28,840 nucleotides of DNA, taken from a virus. Every line of letters starts with the position of its first letter. Position 1 is the first letter of the stretch. The position numbers and the translations under genes were made by a program. The notes beneath the pieces are model-generated. The model saw nothing but the letters and a program-made list of their open reading frames with translations. It was not told where the DNA came from and ran no database searches. Shown here piece by piece: positions 3,178 through 15,774 of this stretch. The stretch spans positions 1 to 28,840 of IMG/VR virus record IMGVR_UViG_3300046000_005218. One strand, 5' to 3'.

Positions 3178-3180
3178 CAA

Positions 3181-3204
3181 AGCCCTCACATTTCTGCAAG
3201 GGCT
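3181..3204. terminator. Hairpin between convergent operons, likely terminator of the minus-strand operon
   Basis: The arms AGCCCT (3181-3186) and AGGGCT (3199-3204) pair over a 12-base loop. Read on the minus strand the hairpin is followed at once by TTTGTTATTT, which fits an intrinsic terminator for the lysis operon. On the plus strand it follows the last gene by three bases but has no U-run, so it would work less well there. Confidence 0.6.
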
Positions 3205-3251
3205 ATGAATCTAATAACTTAACTAACATTGAACGCTGCAAATGTAATAAT

Positions 3252-3818
3252 TTATTTCAAACCAACAAACAACCAAAGCATAAACATAGCCCCACCAACA
3301 CACCAGGCTGCTATTTTACCTTTGCGTTGTTTTTTCGTTTCCTGCTTGCTTATAGCTAACAACGTACTATCGGTAACATTCTCCGCCTTGTAAGCAACTA
3401 TTAAAGAATCCTTAATAGTTGAAGCATCAGCACACAATTGAAACGCATTAAATAACGCAGCATAACTGCTATCCTTTACATTGATTATTTCATCACATAA
3501 CACAAACACTGTGTCACACTCTTTTGGTAGTGTATTACGCAGTTTCTTCATCAATGCTATGTTAGTGTTGGTTAATGATATTTCACGCTTTCTAATGCTA
3601 TCTTTTGCGTTGTTCGCAACTTGCAGTCTTCGGTTAACATTCTCCAGTTGATTAAGTAAAATAACCTGCTCGATACCAAACTGCTTTTTAATCATTTCCG
3701 CTTCTAATTTGTAGTCAAATGGAATAGGCTTTGGTTTGTCTTTGGCGCAATGGTTTAATCCTATAATTAACAATAAACATAGGACTGCGAATGTTATAAG
3801 TTGGTGTTGTGGTTTCAT
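3252..3818 (-). CDS. Candidate spanin: protein with N- and C-terminal membrane-type segments
   Basis: A 188-residue protein. An in-frame ATG exists at 3881, but 3818 is chosen because the leader AACAAT precedes it and the hydrophobic signal-like segment starts right after (about 7-23). That segment ends at a cysteine (C24), though the preceding GLNHC is a poor lipobox. Residues about 36-165 are hydrophilic with coiled-coil character (EMIKKQFGIEQVILLNQLEN), and residues about 170-187 form a second hydrophobic segment (IAAWCVGGAMFMLWLFVGLK). A membrane anchor at each end of a periplasmic rod is the architecture of a unimolecular spanin. It is the last gene of the operon with the endolysin and holin-like protein. 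The spanin role is inferred; it may instead be an i-spanin-like protein. Confidence 0.5.
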   Translation of the reverse strand: MKPQHQLITFAVLCLLLIIGLNHCAKDKPKPIPFDYKLEAEMIKKQFGIEQVILLNQLENVNRRLQVANNAKDSIRKREISLTNTNIALMKKLRNTLPKECDTVFVLCDEIINVKDSSYAALFNAFQLCADASTIKDSLIVAYKAENVTDSTLLAISKQETKKQRKGKIAAWCVGGAMFMLWLFVGLK

Positions 3819-9945: not shown

Positions 9946-10413
9946 ATGAACACACAAAAAACACATTTTAAACAACTCCGAAATACCAACTATATCGGTG
10001 GGTGGGATTTAACCGATGCAGACAAAACCGTAACTATTACCAAAGTGGATAAAGAAAAAGTACACGATGGCAAAGGTGGCGAATCCGAATGCTGCATCGT
10101 TCACTTTGCTGAATGCAAACCGATGGTTGCTAATGCTACTAACTTAAAGCGCATTTCAAAACTATTGGGCAGCCCATTTATTGAAGACTGGGCAAACAAA
10201 CAAATAGTGCTTACAACCGAAAAGGTCAGAGCATTCGGTGAGATGCACGATGCGGTGAGGGTGTCAACCAAGCCAGTAGTTAAACCGACATTGACCGGTG
10301 AAGCAATTGAAAAGGCCAAAGCAGCTATCGCTGCGGGATCAGTTACAATAGATGCAATAAAGAAAAAATATAATGTTACTAACGAGGTGGAGGCTCAATT
10401 GACCAATGGATAA
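9946..10413 (+). CDS. Conserved phage recombination-module protein
   Basis: A 155-residue protein. The N-terminal part has GGWDLTDADKTVTITKVDKE, then CCIVHFAECKPMVANAT and LLGSPFIEDWANKQIVL, a pattern I know from phage proteins next to YqaJ-like exonucleases; the last 40 residues are a separate helical tail. It overlaps the exonuclease start by eight bases. A single-strand annealing or accessory role is a reasonable inference, but no RecT, Erf or Rad52 motif is visible. Confidence 0.65.
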   Translation: MNTQKTHFKQLRNTNYIGGWDLTDADKTVTITKVDKEKVHDGKGGESECCIVHFAECKPMVANATNLKRISKLLGSPFIEDWANKQIVLTTEKVRAFGEMHDAVRVSTKPVVKPTLTGEAIEKAKAAIAAGSVTIDAIKKKYNVTNEVEAQLTNG

Positions 10414-11029
10414 GATATTCAGAATACACTGCTCTCAAATCGGGAAGATAATGAGCAACGCAAAAACAAAAGGCGAATTGTCAGCAACGTGCAAAACTTT
10501 CTTAATGGAATGGTATGCCAATGACCGCGAACAAATCCATTCCAAGTACATTATGAAAGGCAACTTAGTTGAGATTGACCTGATTGATTTTATGGCCGAG
10601 CAAATCGGTTTGGGAATGGCTCAAAAAAACGAAGTAACTGTGCATAACGAATGGATGGTAGGCACTTGCGATGTAATCACGAATCACTTAATAGTTGATG
10701 TTAAGGCTGCTTGGTCACGCAAAACATTGCAGCAACAAGCTATTGAGGGAATGAATAGCGACTATGAGTGGCAAGGTAGAGGTTATATGGCACTTTATGA
10801 GCGACCTACCTTTATCGTGTTTCATGGCCTAATGAACACACCAGAGGAGGCTAACTACGATGGCGAGGTTGTTTATGATGACTTACCCGATAACGAAAGA
10901 TGGGTTGCCTATCAGGTGCAACGTGATGTAACTATTGAGCAATTAATTATTCAACGTGTGATTCAATGCAGAGAATGGCTTGAAGAATATGATAAAAAAA
11001 TAGTTGCTACTTTGGGTAAGATTCATTAA
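10406..11029 (+). CDS. YqaJ / lambda-exo-like PD-(D/E)XK exonuclease
   Basis: A 207-residue nuclease. Visible motifs of the lambda-exo/YqaJ fold: E56 in KGNLVEIDLIDF, D89 in GTCDVIT, then D98-V-K100 in IVDVKAAWS, and Q123 in EWQGRGYM. This is the catalytic set of the family (magnesium-dependent 5' to 3' resection of DNA ends). With the SSB-like protein and the accessory gene upstream it makes a recombination module. The -7 box of the downstream RNA element overlaps its stop codon. Confidence 0.85.
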   Translation: MDKIFRIHCSQIGKIMSNAKTKGELSATCKTFLMEWYANDREQIHSKYIMKGNLVEIDLIDFMAEQIGLGMAQKNEVTVHNEWMVGTCDVITNHLIVDVKAAWSRKTLQQQAIEGMNSDYEWQGRGYMALYERPTFIVFHGLMNTPEEANYDGEVVYDDLPDNERWVAYQVQRDVTIEQLIIQRVIQCREWLEEYDKKIVATLGKIH

Positions 11030-11034
11030 GTTTG
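11003..11034 (+). promoter_or_regulatory. Promoter of RNA element 1
   Basis: GTTG (11003-11006), 20 bases, TAAGTTTG (11027-11034): -7 consensus, acceptable -33. The expected start is at about 11041, exactly where the first hairpin begins, and the -7 overlaps the exonuclease stop. Confidence 0.5.
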
Positions 11035-11040
11035 CATTGT

Positions 11041-11133
11041 TGTTTCGGTTCGACACTAAAGAAACATAAACTTATTGGCCTATTTAATGGAGTGTAGAAG
11101 TCGAACCCTACACGAAATTAGATAGGCTTTTTT
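11041..11133 (+). ncRNA. Candidate structured phage RNA 1 (terminated, kissing-loop)
   Basis: Hairpin 1: TGTTTC (11041-11046) with GAAACA (11061-11066), its 14-base loop holding GGTTCGAC (11047-11054). Hairpin 2: GCCTATTTAAT (11078-11088) with ATTAGATAGGC (11117-11127), 11 pairs with one G-U, containing an apical stem GTGTAG (11092-11097) with CTACAC (11108-11113). Its ten-base loop contains GTCGAACC (11100-11107), the exact complement of the loop of hairpin 1. Six U follow (11128-11133). So the two loops can kiss by eight pairs, and the molecule ends in an intrinsic terminator. A promoter ends six bases before it. It may be a small RNA or an attenuator in front of the gene at 11147. No known family recognised. 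Confidence 0.5.
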
Positions 11134-11146
11134 AATTTTTATAAGT

Positions 11147-11296
11147 ATGAAAATATTTTTAGTAAAATCCCCAAGCGGGAAAATCCTTCCAACATGGGCC
11201 GAAACAATTTATCATGCAATCCAAAAAGCAATGGTAGTGGATGGCTTTAATTACAATCAAATTGAGTACAATAAACTTAATACTGCGAAAAAATGA
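11147..11296 (+). CDS. Small protein (49 residues), unknown
   Basis: ATG 11147 lies 13 bases after the U-run of RNA element 1; the product begins MKIFLVKSPSGKILPTWAET and its TGA overlaps the next ATG (ATGA). A helical middle (YHAIQKAMVVDGF) and a basic end. Its coupling to the following nuclease gene supports real translation. The gene may be controlled by readthrough at the terminator in front of it. Confidence 0.6.
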   Translation: MKIFLVKSPSGKILPTWAETIYHAIQKAMVVDGFNYNQIEYNKLNTAKK

Positions 11297-11856
11297 AAAC
11301 AGAAAAAGAATTGGTTAATCAAATGGTAGTGCACTTTAAAAAGTATTTTGAAGTCCAAAGAGAAGTAGTAAGCAAATGTAAAAAAAACAGAATTGATTTG
11401 CTTTTGACTATTGATGGTAAATATCATTTTGGTATTGAATGCAAAAGGCCCGACAAAAAAAGAGGCGAGGAAATCGGTGAATATGTTTTGCAAGCCAATA
11501 AATACACAAAAGCAGAATGGGAATATAGACCAGGCGAATTTGTAAAAGCACTTATATTTATTTACCCTGCATTATCTTATAACTATTTTATACTTAATGA
11601 AGAATCTATATTTATTGATGGTATCGAATATCATAAGGATAGACATCATAAATTGCATGATCATAATACTGTTAATTCATTTATTTGTAAAATTGCGGAT
11701 ATTGGTGAAGTAAGAAAGAAATCATTAGGCTATCAGTTTTCTTTTATGAACAAACCAATATTTGAACATATAATTTACCCACATACGGGTAAAGATTATT
11801 CAAAGGTTCATGAAGTTAATTATAATTTCTATATGAATAAACTATGCAACCAATAA
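11293..11856 (+). CDS. PD-(D/E)XK family nuclease
   Basis: A 187-residue protein. The catalytic core is visible in residues about 33-71: D35 in RIDLLL, E49-C-K51 in FGIECKRP and Q67 in LQANKY, the restriction-endonuclease-like D...ExK...Q set. The C-terminal half is aromatic and basic with no further motif. It may be a structure-specific endonuclease of replication or recombination; unlike the YqaJ-like protein it lacks that family's conserved GTCD. It starts inside the short gene before it (ATGA) and overlaps the primase gene by 13 bases. Confidence 0.7.
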   Translation: MKTEKELVNQMVVHFKKYFEVQREVVSKCKKNRIDLLLTIDGKYHFGIECKRPDKKRGEEIGEYVLQANKYTKAEWEYRPGEFVKALIFIYPALSYNYFILNEESIFIDGIEYHKDRHHKLHDHNTVNSFICKIADIGEVRKKSLGYQFSFMNKPIFEHIIYPHTGKDYSKVHEVNYNFYMNKLCNQ

Positions 11857-12722
11857 CATTCAACTACTACGAAGCCGATATCAAACGTAGCACTCCACTT
11901 GGTAGTGTTACGCTTGAATATCTTATAAACGCTATTAGAACACCTAAAAAAGATATCCGCAATGTATTTGAGGAGATAAGGATTGCAGAGGAAAATAAAG
12001 ACATGGCTAAAAAACAAGCATTAAAGTCAAAACTATACTCGTTTACTCCATGTGTTTATGTTAACGGGCCGCGTAAGTATTCCAACATTCAACATTGGAC
12101 TGGCTTACTTGTTTTAGACTTTGACCATTTAGCATCCGATGTGGCAGTTGAATTTAAAGAATATTTATTCAATGAATATAAATACATCATAACCGCGTGG
12201 CTATCGGCTTCAAGGCATGGTGTTCGCGCACTGGTTAAGATTCCGATTTGCACTTCGGTAGATGAATTCAAACAATACTATGCAGGAATTGAGCGACACC
12301 TTAACTGTTATAATGGGTTTGATACAGCACCAAAGAACTGCATACTACCAATGTTTATTAGTTACGATGCCGACATTCTACACAGAAACGATGCTCAAAC
12401 TTGGTCAACAAAACATATTGAAATCGTTAGGCCTGCAGTAAAACAATATATTATTGATGACAAAACTTCTGTTATAGAAAAGATTATTTCAAAGCGTATT
12501 AATACCATAACCGATACTGGGCATATTATTTTACGTGCTACGAGTTACTTGCTCGGAGGTTATGTTGGCGCAAATTATATTGATTATAATGATGCCATTT
12601 CTTTAATCAATAACTTAATTGATTCGCAAAGCTACCTTTCTAAAAAGCCTGATGTGTATAAACAAACCGCAAAACAAATGGTGGATAAGGGTTTAAATTT
12701 TCCTACTTATTTATCTAAATAA
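11844..12722 (+). CDS. BT4734/VirE-N-like primase domain protein
   Basis: A 292-residue protein. The N-terminal 180 residues match the BT4734 / VirE N-terminal type of primase-like domain common in Bacteroidota: GLLVLDFDHL with the metal-binding D92-F-D94, SRHGVRALVKI (residues 123-132) corresponding to the S-x-H step, then NCILPMFISYDAD. This is an archaeo-eukaryotic primase relative. It is normally coupled to a helicase, here found as a separate gene 316 bases downstream. It likely makes replication primers; no zinc motif is visible. The overlap with the nuclease gene indicates one operon, and RNA element 2 follows its stop. Confidence 0.75.
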   Translation: MQPITFNYYEADIKRSTPLGSVTLEYLINAIRTPKKDIRNVFEEIRIAEENKDMAKKQALKSKLYSFTPCVYVNGPRKYSNIQHWTGLLVLDFDHLASDVAVEFKEYLFNEYKYIITAWLSASRHGVRALVKIPICTSVDEFKQYYAGIERHLNCYNGFDTAPKNCILPMFISYDADILHRNDAQTWSTKHIEIVRPAVKQYIIDDKTSVIEKIISKRINTITDTGHIILRATSYLLGGYVGANYIDYNDAISLINNLIDSQSYLSKKPDVYKQTAKQMVDKGLNFPTYLSK

Positions 12723-12723
12723 A

Positions 12724-12754
12724 TTTAGGAATTAAAAATATTTAATTATATTTG
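12724..12754 (+). promoter_or_regulatory. Promoter of RNA element 2
   Basis: TTTA (12724-12727), 19 bases, TATATTTG (12747-12754). The -7 is a full match, the -33 imperfect. Expected start is about 12760, at the first paired strand of the RNA. It overlaps nothing coding. Confidence 0.55.
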
Positions 12755-12758
12755 CACC

Positions 12759-12860
12759 GCTTACTCACTTATGAAAATATTTAAAAATCCTATCATTCAC
12801 ATTGCCAATTGTTGCGACCGCAACGAGTGGGTAAGCCTTTGTGTTTGATAGGTATTTTTT
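12759..12860 (+). ncRNA. Candidate structured phage RNA 2 (A-B-A'-B' pseudoknot with terminator)
   Basis: Strand A, GCTTACTCACT (12759-12769), pairs with A', AGTGGGTAAGC (12826-12836), 11 pairs with one G-U. Strand B, AAAAAT then CCTATCA (12783-12795), pairs with B', TGATAGG (12846-12852) and, after one bulged base, ATTTTT (12854-12859), as a terminator-like stem with a U-rich end. Hairpin C, GTTGC (12811-12815) with GCAAC (12820-12824), lies between B and A'. A encloses B and B' lies past A', so the whole is a pseudoknot or two exclusive folds. A promoter ends four bases before it. Element 1 has the same order and the same CCTAT/ATAGG stem core. Confidence 0.5.
12771..12848 (+). CDS. Possible 25-residue ORF inside RNA element 2
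   Basis: ATG 12771 opens a frame ending at TGA 12846-12848. It reads MKIFKNPIIHIANCCDRNEW and ends VSLCV, with three cysteine codons, two adjacent. It spans the paired strands of element 2, so it may be a leader peptide whose translation decides the fold, or it may be chance. No clear ribosome binding context beyond A-rich sequence after the ATG. Low confidence. Confidence 0.25.
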   Translation: MKIFKNPIIHIANCCDRNEWVSLCV

Positions 12861-12863
12861 ATT

Positions 12864-13052
12864 ATGGAAAACCCAAAAACAAAAAAAGAAAGATTTGATT
12901 ACTTTGCAGGATTAGCAATGCAAAGTTTTATTTCAAAAATGGAAGAAAGTTATAAAGATTTTGAAGAACTTGACATAGAAATTATATGTTTTGCTGCAAG
13001 AGAATTTGCTCAAGAAATGATAAAACAAATTGACGAAAATGAACAAATTTAA
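12864..13052 (+). CDS. Small conserved phage protein, unknown
   Basis: A 62-residue helical protein with the pattern FDYFAGLAMQSFISKMEES and a C-terminal FAQEMIKQIDENEQI, similar to small proteins (YFAAMAL type) found beside replication genes in many phages. Its start follows the terminator of RNA element 2 by a few bases, so its expression may depend on readthrough. It overlaps the helicase by 14 bases. Confidence 0.6.
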   Translation: MENPKTKKERFDYFAGLAMQSFISKMEESYKDFEELDIEIICFAAREFAQEMIKQIDENEQI

Positions 13053-15417: not shown

Positions 15418-15774
15418 ATGAAAGCCGATGACAAAACGACCAAAAAACGACCTCAAAAACTATTTAAAGGCGATGAGGGTGTTAAGTTTAGCAAAGACAA
15501 TCAACCACCGCCTGAAAACAAAAGCAAAGGATGGGAGGCAAGGCGCGCGGAAAGGTTATTGACTCAAAAGATTATTGAAAAGTTAACGGGCGCCAATAAT
15601 TTAGAGGACTATGTCGATAGCCTTTTTAACAACGCAAAGATGGGCAATGCTAAAGCCATTGACACATTGAATAACGGAATAGAGGAGCAAATAACCAAAA
15701 CCGAAACAACTATCACCGACAACCGCCCACCATCAACGGTTACGATGCCTGATGGAACTAAGATTGAAATTTAA
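15418..15774 (+). CDS. Putative small terminase subunit
   Basis: A 118-residue protein. Basic N-terminus (MKADDKTTKKRPQKLFKGDE) then VKFSKDNQPPPENKSKGWEA, reminiscent of DUF5681-type proteins that precede TerL, and a helical middle rich in charged residues. It ends with TVTMPDGTKIEI. The gene abuts TerL (TAATG) and follows a promoter. TerS recognises phage DNA and passes it to TerL; here the assignment rests on position and weak similarity, as small terminases vary widely. Confidence 0.55.
   Translation: MKADDKTTKKRPQKLFKGDEGVKFSKDNQPPPENKSKGWEARRAERLLTQKIIEKLTGANNLEDYVDSLFNNAKMGNAKAIDTLNNGIEEQITKTETTITDNRPPSTVTMPDGTKIEI

Follow-up and report, generated by a model that had tools for sequence, protein, structure and literature searches.

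Three kinds of RNA device that resemble the leaders described here are already known: transcription attenuators, pseudoknot riboswitches, and the RNA-controlled homing endonuclease genes of phages. In attenuators that use an intrinsic terminator, such as ribosomal-protein leaders (e.g. rplJL; PMC4538822) and leader-peptide attenuators, a promoter is followed by a structured leader, a terminator and a gene, and the leader-peptide attenuators contain a small ORF. The preQ1, fluoride and SAM-II pseudoknot riboswitches and the kissing-loop purine riboswitches are short leaders with a pseudoknot or loop-loop contact near a terminator. The expression of homing endonucleases such as Aeh1 mobE and T4 I-TevI is limited by hairpins over the ribosome-binding site (PMC3014915).

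In the arrangement that we describe, a terminator forms a pseudoknot with the first bases of the transcript that it ends, and this combination recurs ahead of unrelated phage genes. It appears to be a variation on the known kinds that has not been seen before. It has the same succession of parts as an attenuator, and a putative small ORF is likewise present in some of its types. In contrast to the known attenuators, the terminator loop itself is the pairing partner of the RNA's 5' end, there is no overlapping antiterminator stem, and the genes it heads are unrelated phage genes rather than members of one pathway. Unlike in the riboswitches, the bases in contact are free to change as long as their partners change too, there is no sign of an invariant ligand pocket, and the genes behind the leaders have no common metabolite; both sequences and genes are unrelated across the types. 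The RNA control of homing endonucleases is similar in that a structure is located just upstream of a free-standing HNH or GIY-YIG gene, which one of our types (type D) often precedes, whereas the kissing leader is a promoter-proximal pseudoknotted terminator that is also found ahead of replication and methylase genes.

The type III toxin-antitoxin system ToxIN has the same order of promoter, pseudoknotted RNA, terminator and gene. The kissing leader, by contrast, is a single unit, present in the sequence as a single copy without tandem repeats, and no toxin family was found among the downstream genes scanned. The phi29 pRNA is also a phage RNA with two mutually complementary loops. Its hallmarks are kissing between separate molecules and participation in the packaging motor, whereas the kissing leaders differ in fold and genomic context, are not linked to packaging genes, and have a linker of sufficient length for the two loops to pair within one molecule.

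A terminator whose loop pairs with the 5' end of its RNA

The window, i.e. the whole stretch of DNA analysed, is an entire virus record of 28,840 bases. Its gene complement matches Bacteroidota phages, and a search for tRNA and tmRNA genes in it returned none. The first-pass annotation had proposed a promoter-to-terminator RNA with kissing loops at 11003-11133, and the promoter box, 5' hairpin, terminator, apical stem and six U that it listed are all present (element 1, Table 1). The promoter lies within the 3' end of the exonuclease gene, the first three bases of TAAGTTTG being the exonuclease stop codon. Both hairpins were returned by RNAfold, with a minimum free energy (MFE) of -26.9 kcal/mol and a z of -4.5 (0 of 200 shuffles were as good). 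Element 1 was picked up by a scan for terminators carrying a loop 8-mer complementary to upstream sequence, which gave no match in 10 Markov-simulated windows.

Table 1. Positions of the two kissing leaders, the plain terminator site and the neighbouring genes in the window
Feature	Position	Strand	Sequence	Remark
Site 3	3180-3260	minus	TACATTTG; AGCCCTTGCAGAAATGTGAGGGCT	promoter, then plain terminator; no co-directional gene
Exonuclease ORF	10406-11029			phrog_5715
Element 1 promoter	11004-11034	+	TTG; TAAGTTTG	TTG 11004-11006, 20-nt spacer, -7 box 11027-11034
Element 1 5' hairpin S1	11041-11066	+	TGTTTC/GAAACA	arms 11041-11046 and 11061-11066; RNAfold
Element 1 K	11047-11054	+	GGTTCGAC	kissing strand in S1 loop
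Element 1 linker	11067-11077	+	TAAACTTATTG	S1 to terminator; single-stranded, unpaired in MFE
Element 1 terminator hairpin T	11078-11127	+	GCCTATTTAAT/ATTAGATAGGC	arms 11078-11088 and 11117-11127; RNAfold
Element 1 apical stem S2	11092-11097, 11108-11113	+	GTGTAG/CTACAC	inside T
Element 1 K'	11100-11107	+	GTCGAACC	in terminator loop; perfect complement of K
Element 1 U-run	11128-11133	+	six T	from sequence
49-aa gene	11147-11296	+		ATG 13 nt past U-run
BT4734-like/VirE gene	11844-12722
Element 2 -7 box	12747-12754	+	TATATTTG	from sequence
Element 2 K	12759-12770	+	GCTTACTCACTT	about the first 12 nt of the predicted transcript; box-to-K 4 nt
Element 2 putative leader peptide ORF	12771-12848	+	MKIFKNPIIHIANCCDRNEWVSLCV, then stop	begins directly past K
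Element 2 terminator stem	12789-12852	+	CCTATCA/TGATAGG
Element 2 apical hairpin	12811-12815, 12820-12824	+	GTTGC/GCAAC
Element 2 K'	12825-12836	+	GAGTGGGTAAGC
Element 2 U-run	12855-12860	+		62-aa gene begins at 12864
DUF5906 primase/helicase	at 13030
Terminase	at 15774

The promoter consensus of sigma-A(Bfr) is TAnnTTTG / TTTG (PMC7366714), and the -7 box occupies positions -12 to -5 (PMC9723704). The distance from this box to the structure is fixed, at 5, 6, 4 and 4 nt in the types that we call A, B, D and E (for type A, to which element 1 belongs, 5 nt in 49 of 50 instances). Taken together, box position and fixed spacing predict an RNA start at the structure or at most 2 nt from it. For element 1 the predicted start is about 11039, so the earlier estimate of a 5' end near 11041 was about right.

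The product of the 49-aa gene downstream of element 1 had no match in Pfam. Among relatives, genes of 49, 42, 93, 57, 111-118, 132 and 232 aa are swapped in this place, which is a hypervariable accessory slot behind a constant exonuclease and leader.

Covariation of the kissing pairs

About 150 viral loci were gathered by scanning with the proteins encoded nearby and with a pattern that left most of the kissing bases free. Matched pairs of kissing 8-mers were found downstream of the exonuclease: GGTTCGAC/GTCGAACC, GATTCCAC/GTGGAATC, GGTCTCAC/GTGAGACC and GATCTCAC/GTGAGATC. In all 24 distinct type-A sequences the kiss helix is 100% paired, and four of its eight pairs (2, 4, 5 and 6) have changed on both sides. 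Over the whole type-A structure, 17 of 31 pairs have changed on both sides, in 115 double-change cells. No slid control had more than 9 such cells, and none of 500 shuffles equalled the covariation score. The 5' hairpin S1 is paired in 97% of cells, with one pair turned from U-A to A-U, and the terminator T has double changes at 12 of its 17 pairs. T is a GC-containing hairpin directly before a U-run, conserved with compensation, as in an intrinsic terminator. For type A the kiss has a predicted energy of -10 to -13 kcal/mol, and the kiss energies as a whole range from -7 to -20 kcal/mol. The 8-bp loop-loop pairing, seen in the first-pass annotation as perfect complementarity and expected there to leave compensatory changes among homologues, is strongly supported by this covariation; such changes are clearly present in the kissing pairs.

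A family of leaders with one design

The earlier reading had missed that element 1 belongs to a large family and that the same design recurs in the window at 12747-12860, with promoter, K, linker, terminator with K' in its loop, and U-run (element 2, type D). We searched 17 near-complete phage records for this architecture, defined as a TAnnTTT[GA] box, K, 5' terminator arm, K', 3' arm and T-run. At a score of 38 or more there were 39 matches, a few of them chance or duplicate boxes, as compared to a single match in Markov-shuffled genomes. The kissing-terminator design recurs in several sequence-unrelated types, each with matching K and K', across dozens of uncultured phage contigs. Type B is marked by GATTCAC/GTGAATC and GATTGAC/GTCAATC, type C by ACCCGCCAA/TTGGCGGGT and type E by GTAGGAG/CTCCTAC. 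Read directly in the sequences, types A and E have one order of parts: stem, K, A-rich linker, stem, and in the second half apical stem, short linker, K', stem.

At the gathering threshold Rfam 15 gave no match in the window, and at E<=10 the region 10950-12900 gave two chance-level matches only, neither of them on the elements; this agrees with the first-pass annotation, which had not recognised element 1 as any known family. Literature searches in open-access papers returned no description of such an arrangement. The kissing leaders are a recurring and apparently undescribed set in Bacteroidota phages.

A distant relative (L199, record G008) has three kissing leaders of further sequence-unrelated types, at about 2064, 4545 and 6240, with K:K' helices of 10-13 bp; they precede a 380-aa gene, a helicase and a 97-aa protein. 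The type-D pattern scan returned many further alleles in diverse contigs. One contig, L209, carries at least four kissing leaders (6868, 9644, 10639 and 13406), and one of these precedes a homologue of the VirE-like gene of the window.

Kissing terminators lead genes

All 87 distinct instances end 0-18 nt upstream of a co-directional ATG, a count that leaves out the 88th in the list (L167), which is a chance bacterial match. The leaders lie between a promoter and a co-directional start codon, and no further promoter intervenes. Since phage genomes are compact, the short distance to a gene start is weak evidence by itself. The downstream genes are unrelated to each other: the 49-aa gene, 93-aa and 57-aa proteins, nucleases, a DUF5906-type primase, a helicase, a BT4734-like primase, a C5 cytosine methylase, and NUMOD4/HNH, NUMOD3 and GIY-YIG homing endonucleases. 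We then compared terminators with a promoter box 20-100 nt upstream. All 30 of the kissing ones stand ahead of a gene (28 by the script, which missed the ATG at 7 nt in two copies of the type-D2 allele), and none of the 24 plain ones does. The Fisher p of about 7e-16 overstates the evidence, since the genomes are related, the counts being phylogenetically non-independent, and some of the 24 boxes are chance occurrences within genes.

Site 3 of the window carries a plain terminator. In relatives, a kissing leader (type E) and an accessory gene, a methylase or another, stand ahead of it, and the kissing type is found at this site only with such a gene behind it. The plain form, type F, which makes up 14 of the 24 plain terminators, either closes a unit, or has no gene after it, as in the window, or is followed by a gene with its own promoter. 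Judged by these comparisons, site 3 can be regarded as a natural experiment.

Action in cis or in trans

Each record that carries a type-A allele has exactly one copy of K and one of its complement, both inside the element, and no trans target with an 8-base match was found inside the phage genomes. The K and K' of different elements in one genome, e.g. those of the A1 and D1 alleles in the window, barely cross-pair. The first-pass annotation had left the choice between a small RNA and an attenuator. The second of these is the better supported, given the gene start close behind every instance, the behaviour of site 3 and the unique K and K', and the first has become less likely. A free-standing structured RNA of about 90 nt, closed at both ends (by a 5' hairpin or K at nucleotide +1, and by the 3' terminator), would act in trans on host RNA or bind a host or phage protein, and the genes behind it would be accessory cassettes inserted by chance at its 3' end. 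An own promoter and terminator, a compact fold (z about -4.5 to -4.7) and an RNA that stays constant while its flanks and downstream gene vary are what such a molecule might be expected to have. However, the leaders are always gene-linked, plain terminators are absent from such gene-start positions, and the downstream genes have no room for a separate promoter. The phage genomes hold no second copy of K or K', and the sequence-unrelated types have only the fold in common, which argues against one conserved trans target. We therefore consider a trans-acting RNA unlikely.

An upstream reading frame in type D

In element 2, K and K' are paired at 11 of 11 positions when U-G is allowed, and both stems are compensated in the D2 allele (CCCATCA/TGATGGG and GTTAC/GTAAC). 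Over 13 type-D alleles the K:K' helix is 98.6% paired, with at least three pair types at several positions and 5 positions with several types; these pairs were counted by script, since the MAFFT alignment gapped K badly. In a control with K' swapped between elements, the mean was 82% paired and the maximum of 2000 was 94%.

A start codon stands directly after K in types C, D and X1. For type D this is not independent evidence, because the scan pattern required ATGAA after K; two type-D alleles (those of the window group and of G008) were first seen without this pattern. The frame that follows K has 13 stops in 396 codons, compared to 39 in 393 and 23 in 391 in the other frames, a difference that is suggestive only, and an early stop is found in the upstream ORF of 2 of the 13 alleles. 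A ribosome on the type-D ORF would cover K, which suggests gating by translation. The open frame past K often ends near the next ATG or overlaps it, as in TTATGA (L209, L211, L213, L218 and others), hinting at translational coupling. For types A, B and E, including element 1, no sensor is apparent, and reading of their sequences gave no such upstream ORF. An ORF overlapping the type-A terminator was rejected on reading, its frame being broken at different places in different alleles.

The RNA of element 2 is identical in several contigs with different flanks. In some relatives the gene after it is an HNH endonuclease (170 aa in L172).

A model for the kissing leaders

The explanation that we favour, and which we hold to be probable, is that these RNAs are cis-acting leaders, in the form of promoter-proximal transcription attenuators with a pseudoknotted terminator. 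The kissing leader probably controls whether the next gene is expressed. Host RNA polymerase would start at the TAnnTTTG promoter and make a leader of about 90-110 nt, in which the 5' segment K would pair with the K' of the terminator loop. The polymerase would then either stop at the U-run, with the release of a short RNA, or continue into the gene, no more than about 20 nt away. We infer that termination is partial and regulated: it would happen in a fraction of passes, and the kiss would be the regulatory handle that sets this fraction. Since K directly adjoins the start codon of the upstream ORF in types C, D and X1, a ribosome loaded at this ORF and the K:K' pairing should exclude each other there, and read-through would be coupled to translation. 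The terminator arms share no bases with K and K', and the kiss and the terminator stem can form together; no classical switch of exclusive structures is therefore visible. Besides this and the early stops in two of the 13 type-D alleles, what speaks against an attenuator is that one type-A RNA precedes many unrelated genes, with no hint of a sensed signal.

The pseudoknot might instead be a mechanical 5' element, which from nucleotide +1 would shield the read-through mRNA from decay or insulate the next translation start, without regulation by the kiss and with a U-run that merely lowers the yield. Judged by the spacing and box position (PMC9723704), types A, B, D and E do have a structure that begins at about +1, and very different genes follow, as this explanation would allow. 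Yet a canonical terminator stem and U-run are present in every type, which would be costly if stability alone were selected, and the kiss partner is specifically within the terminator loop. We find this account improbable. Still harder to sustain is the idea that the leader is recognised, by its fold rather than its sequence, by an antitermination or processing factor of the phage, which would switch several operons together, the leader being functionally like the lambda nut or HK022 put sites beside early promoters: two or more leaders per genome with different sequences and one architecture, some ahead of replication genes, and an A-rich linker like AAAACATTAAA in several types (by eye) would fit it, but no candidate factor was identified and isolate relatives of the same phage group are without the element.

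Returning to the attenuator, we put forward more tentatively that the kissing leaders may be a fold-conserved, previously undescribed class of phage leader, whose terminator would be made conditional by its own loop pairing with the first nucleotides of the transcript. They would give many Bacteroidota phages a portable module for the control of genes for replication, modification and homing endonucleases, which in some types would be read by ribosome loading. The regulatory RNA of Bacteroidota phages is hardly charted. If the proposal is true, it would add a common and modular leader class with an unusual terminator that is already backed by covariation, and whose mechanism is therefore directly testable with compensatory mutants. 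Such a class would further indicate how phages restrain accessory genes that are costly, homing endonucleases and methylases among them, and could be a source of compact regulatory parts for Bacteroidota genetics.

Relatives and hosts

A blastn search against phages gave no match, and a helicase-based search for relatives of G008 returned G008 itself only. In isolate relatives with related replication genes (pippi8-1, phi18:1, P12024L, phi46:1, FPSV-S1, PF672P2 and phi38:2), architecture matches did not exceed the Markov background. The type D and E patterns were found in 0 of 395 genomes from the phylum of the one metagenome-assembled genome (MAG) that carries type A. By eye, an A-rich linker like AAAACATTAAA is located between K and the terminator in several otherwise unrelated types. 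The type-A pattern scan of genome contigs gave three chance matches and one true match, on a 4.6-kb contig (L168) in the Bacteroidetes MAG ZE-17mar17-168, which is a possible pointer to the host.
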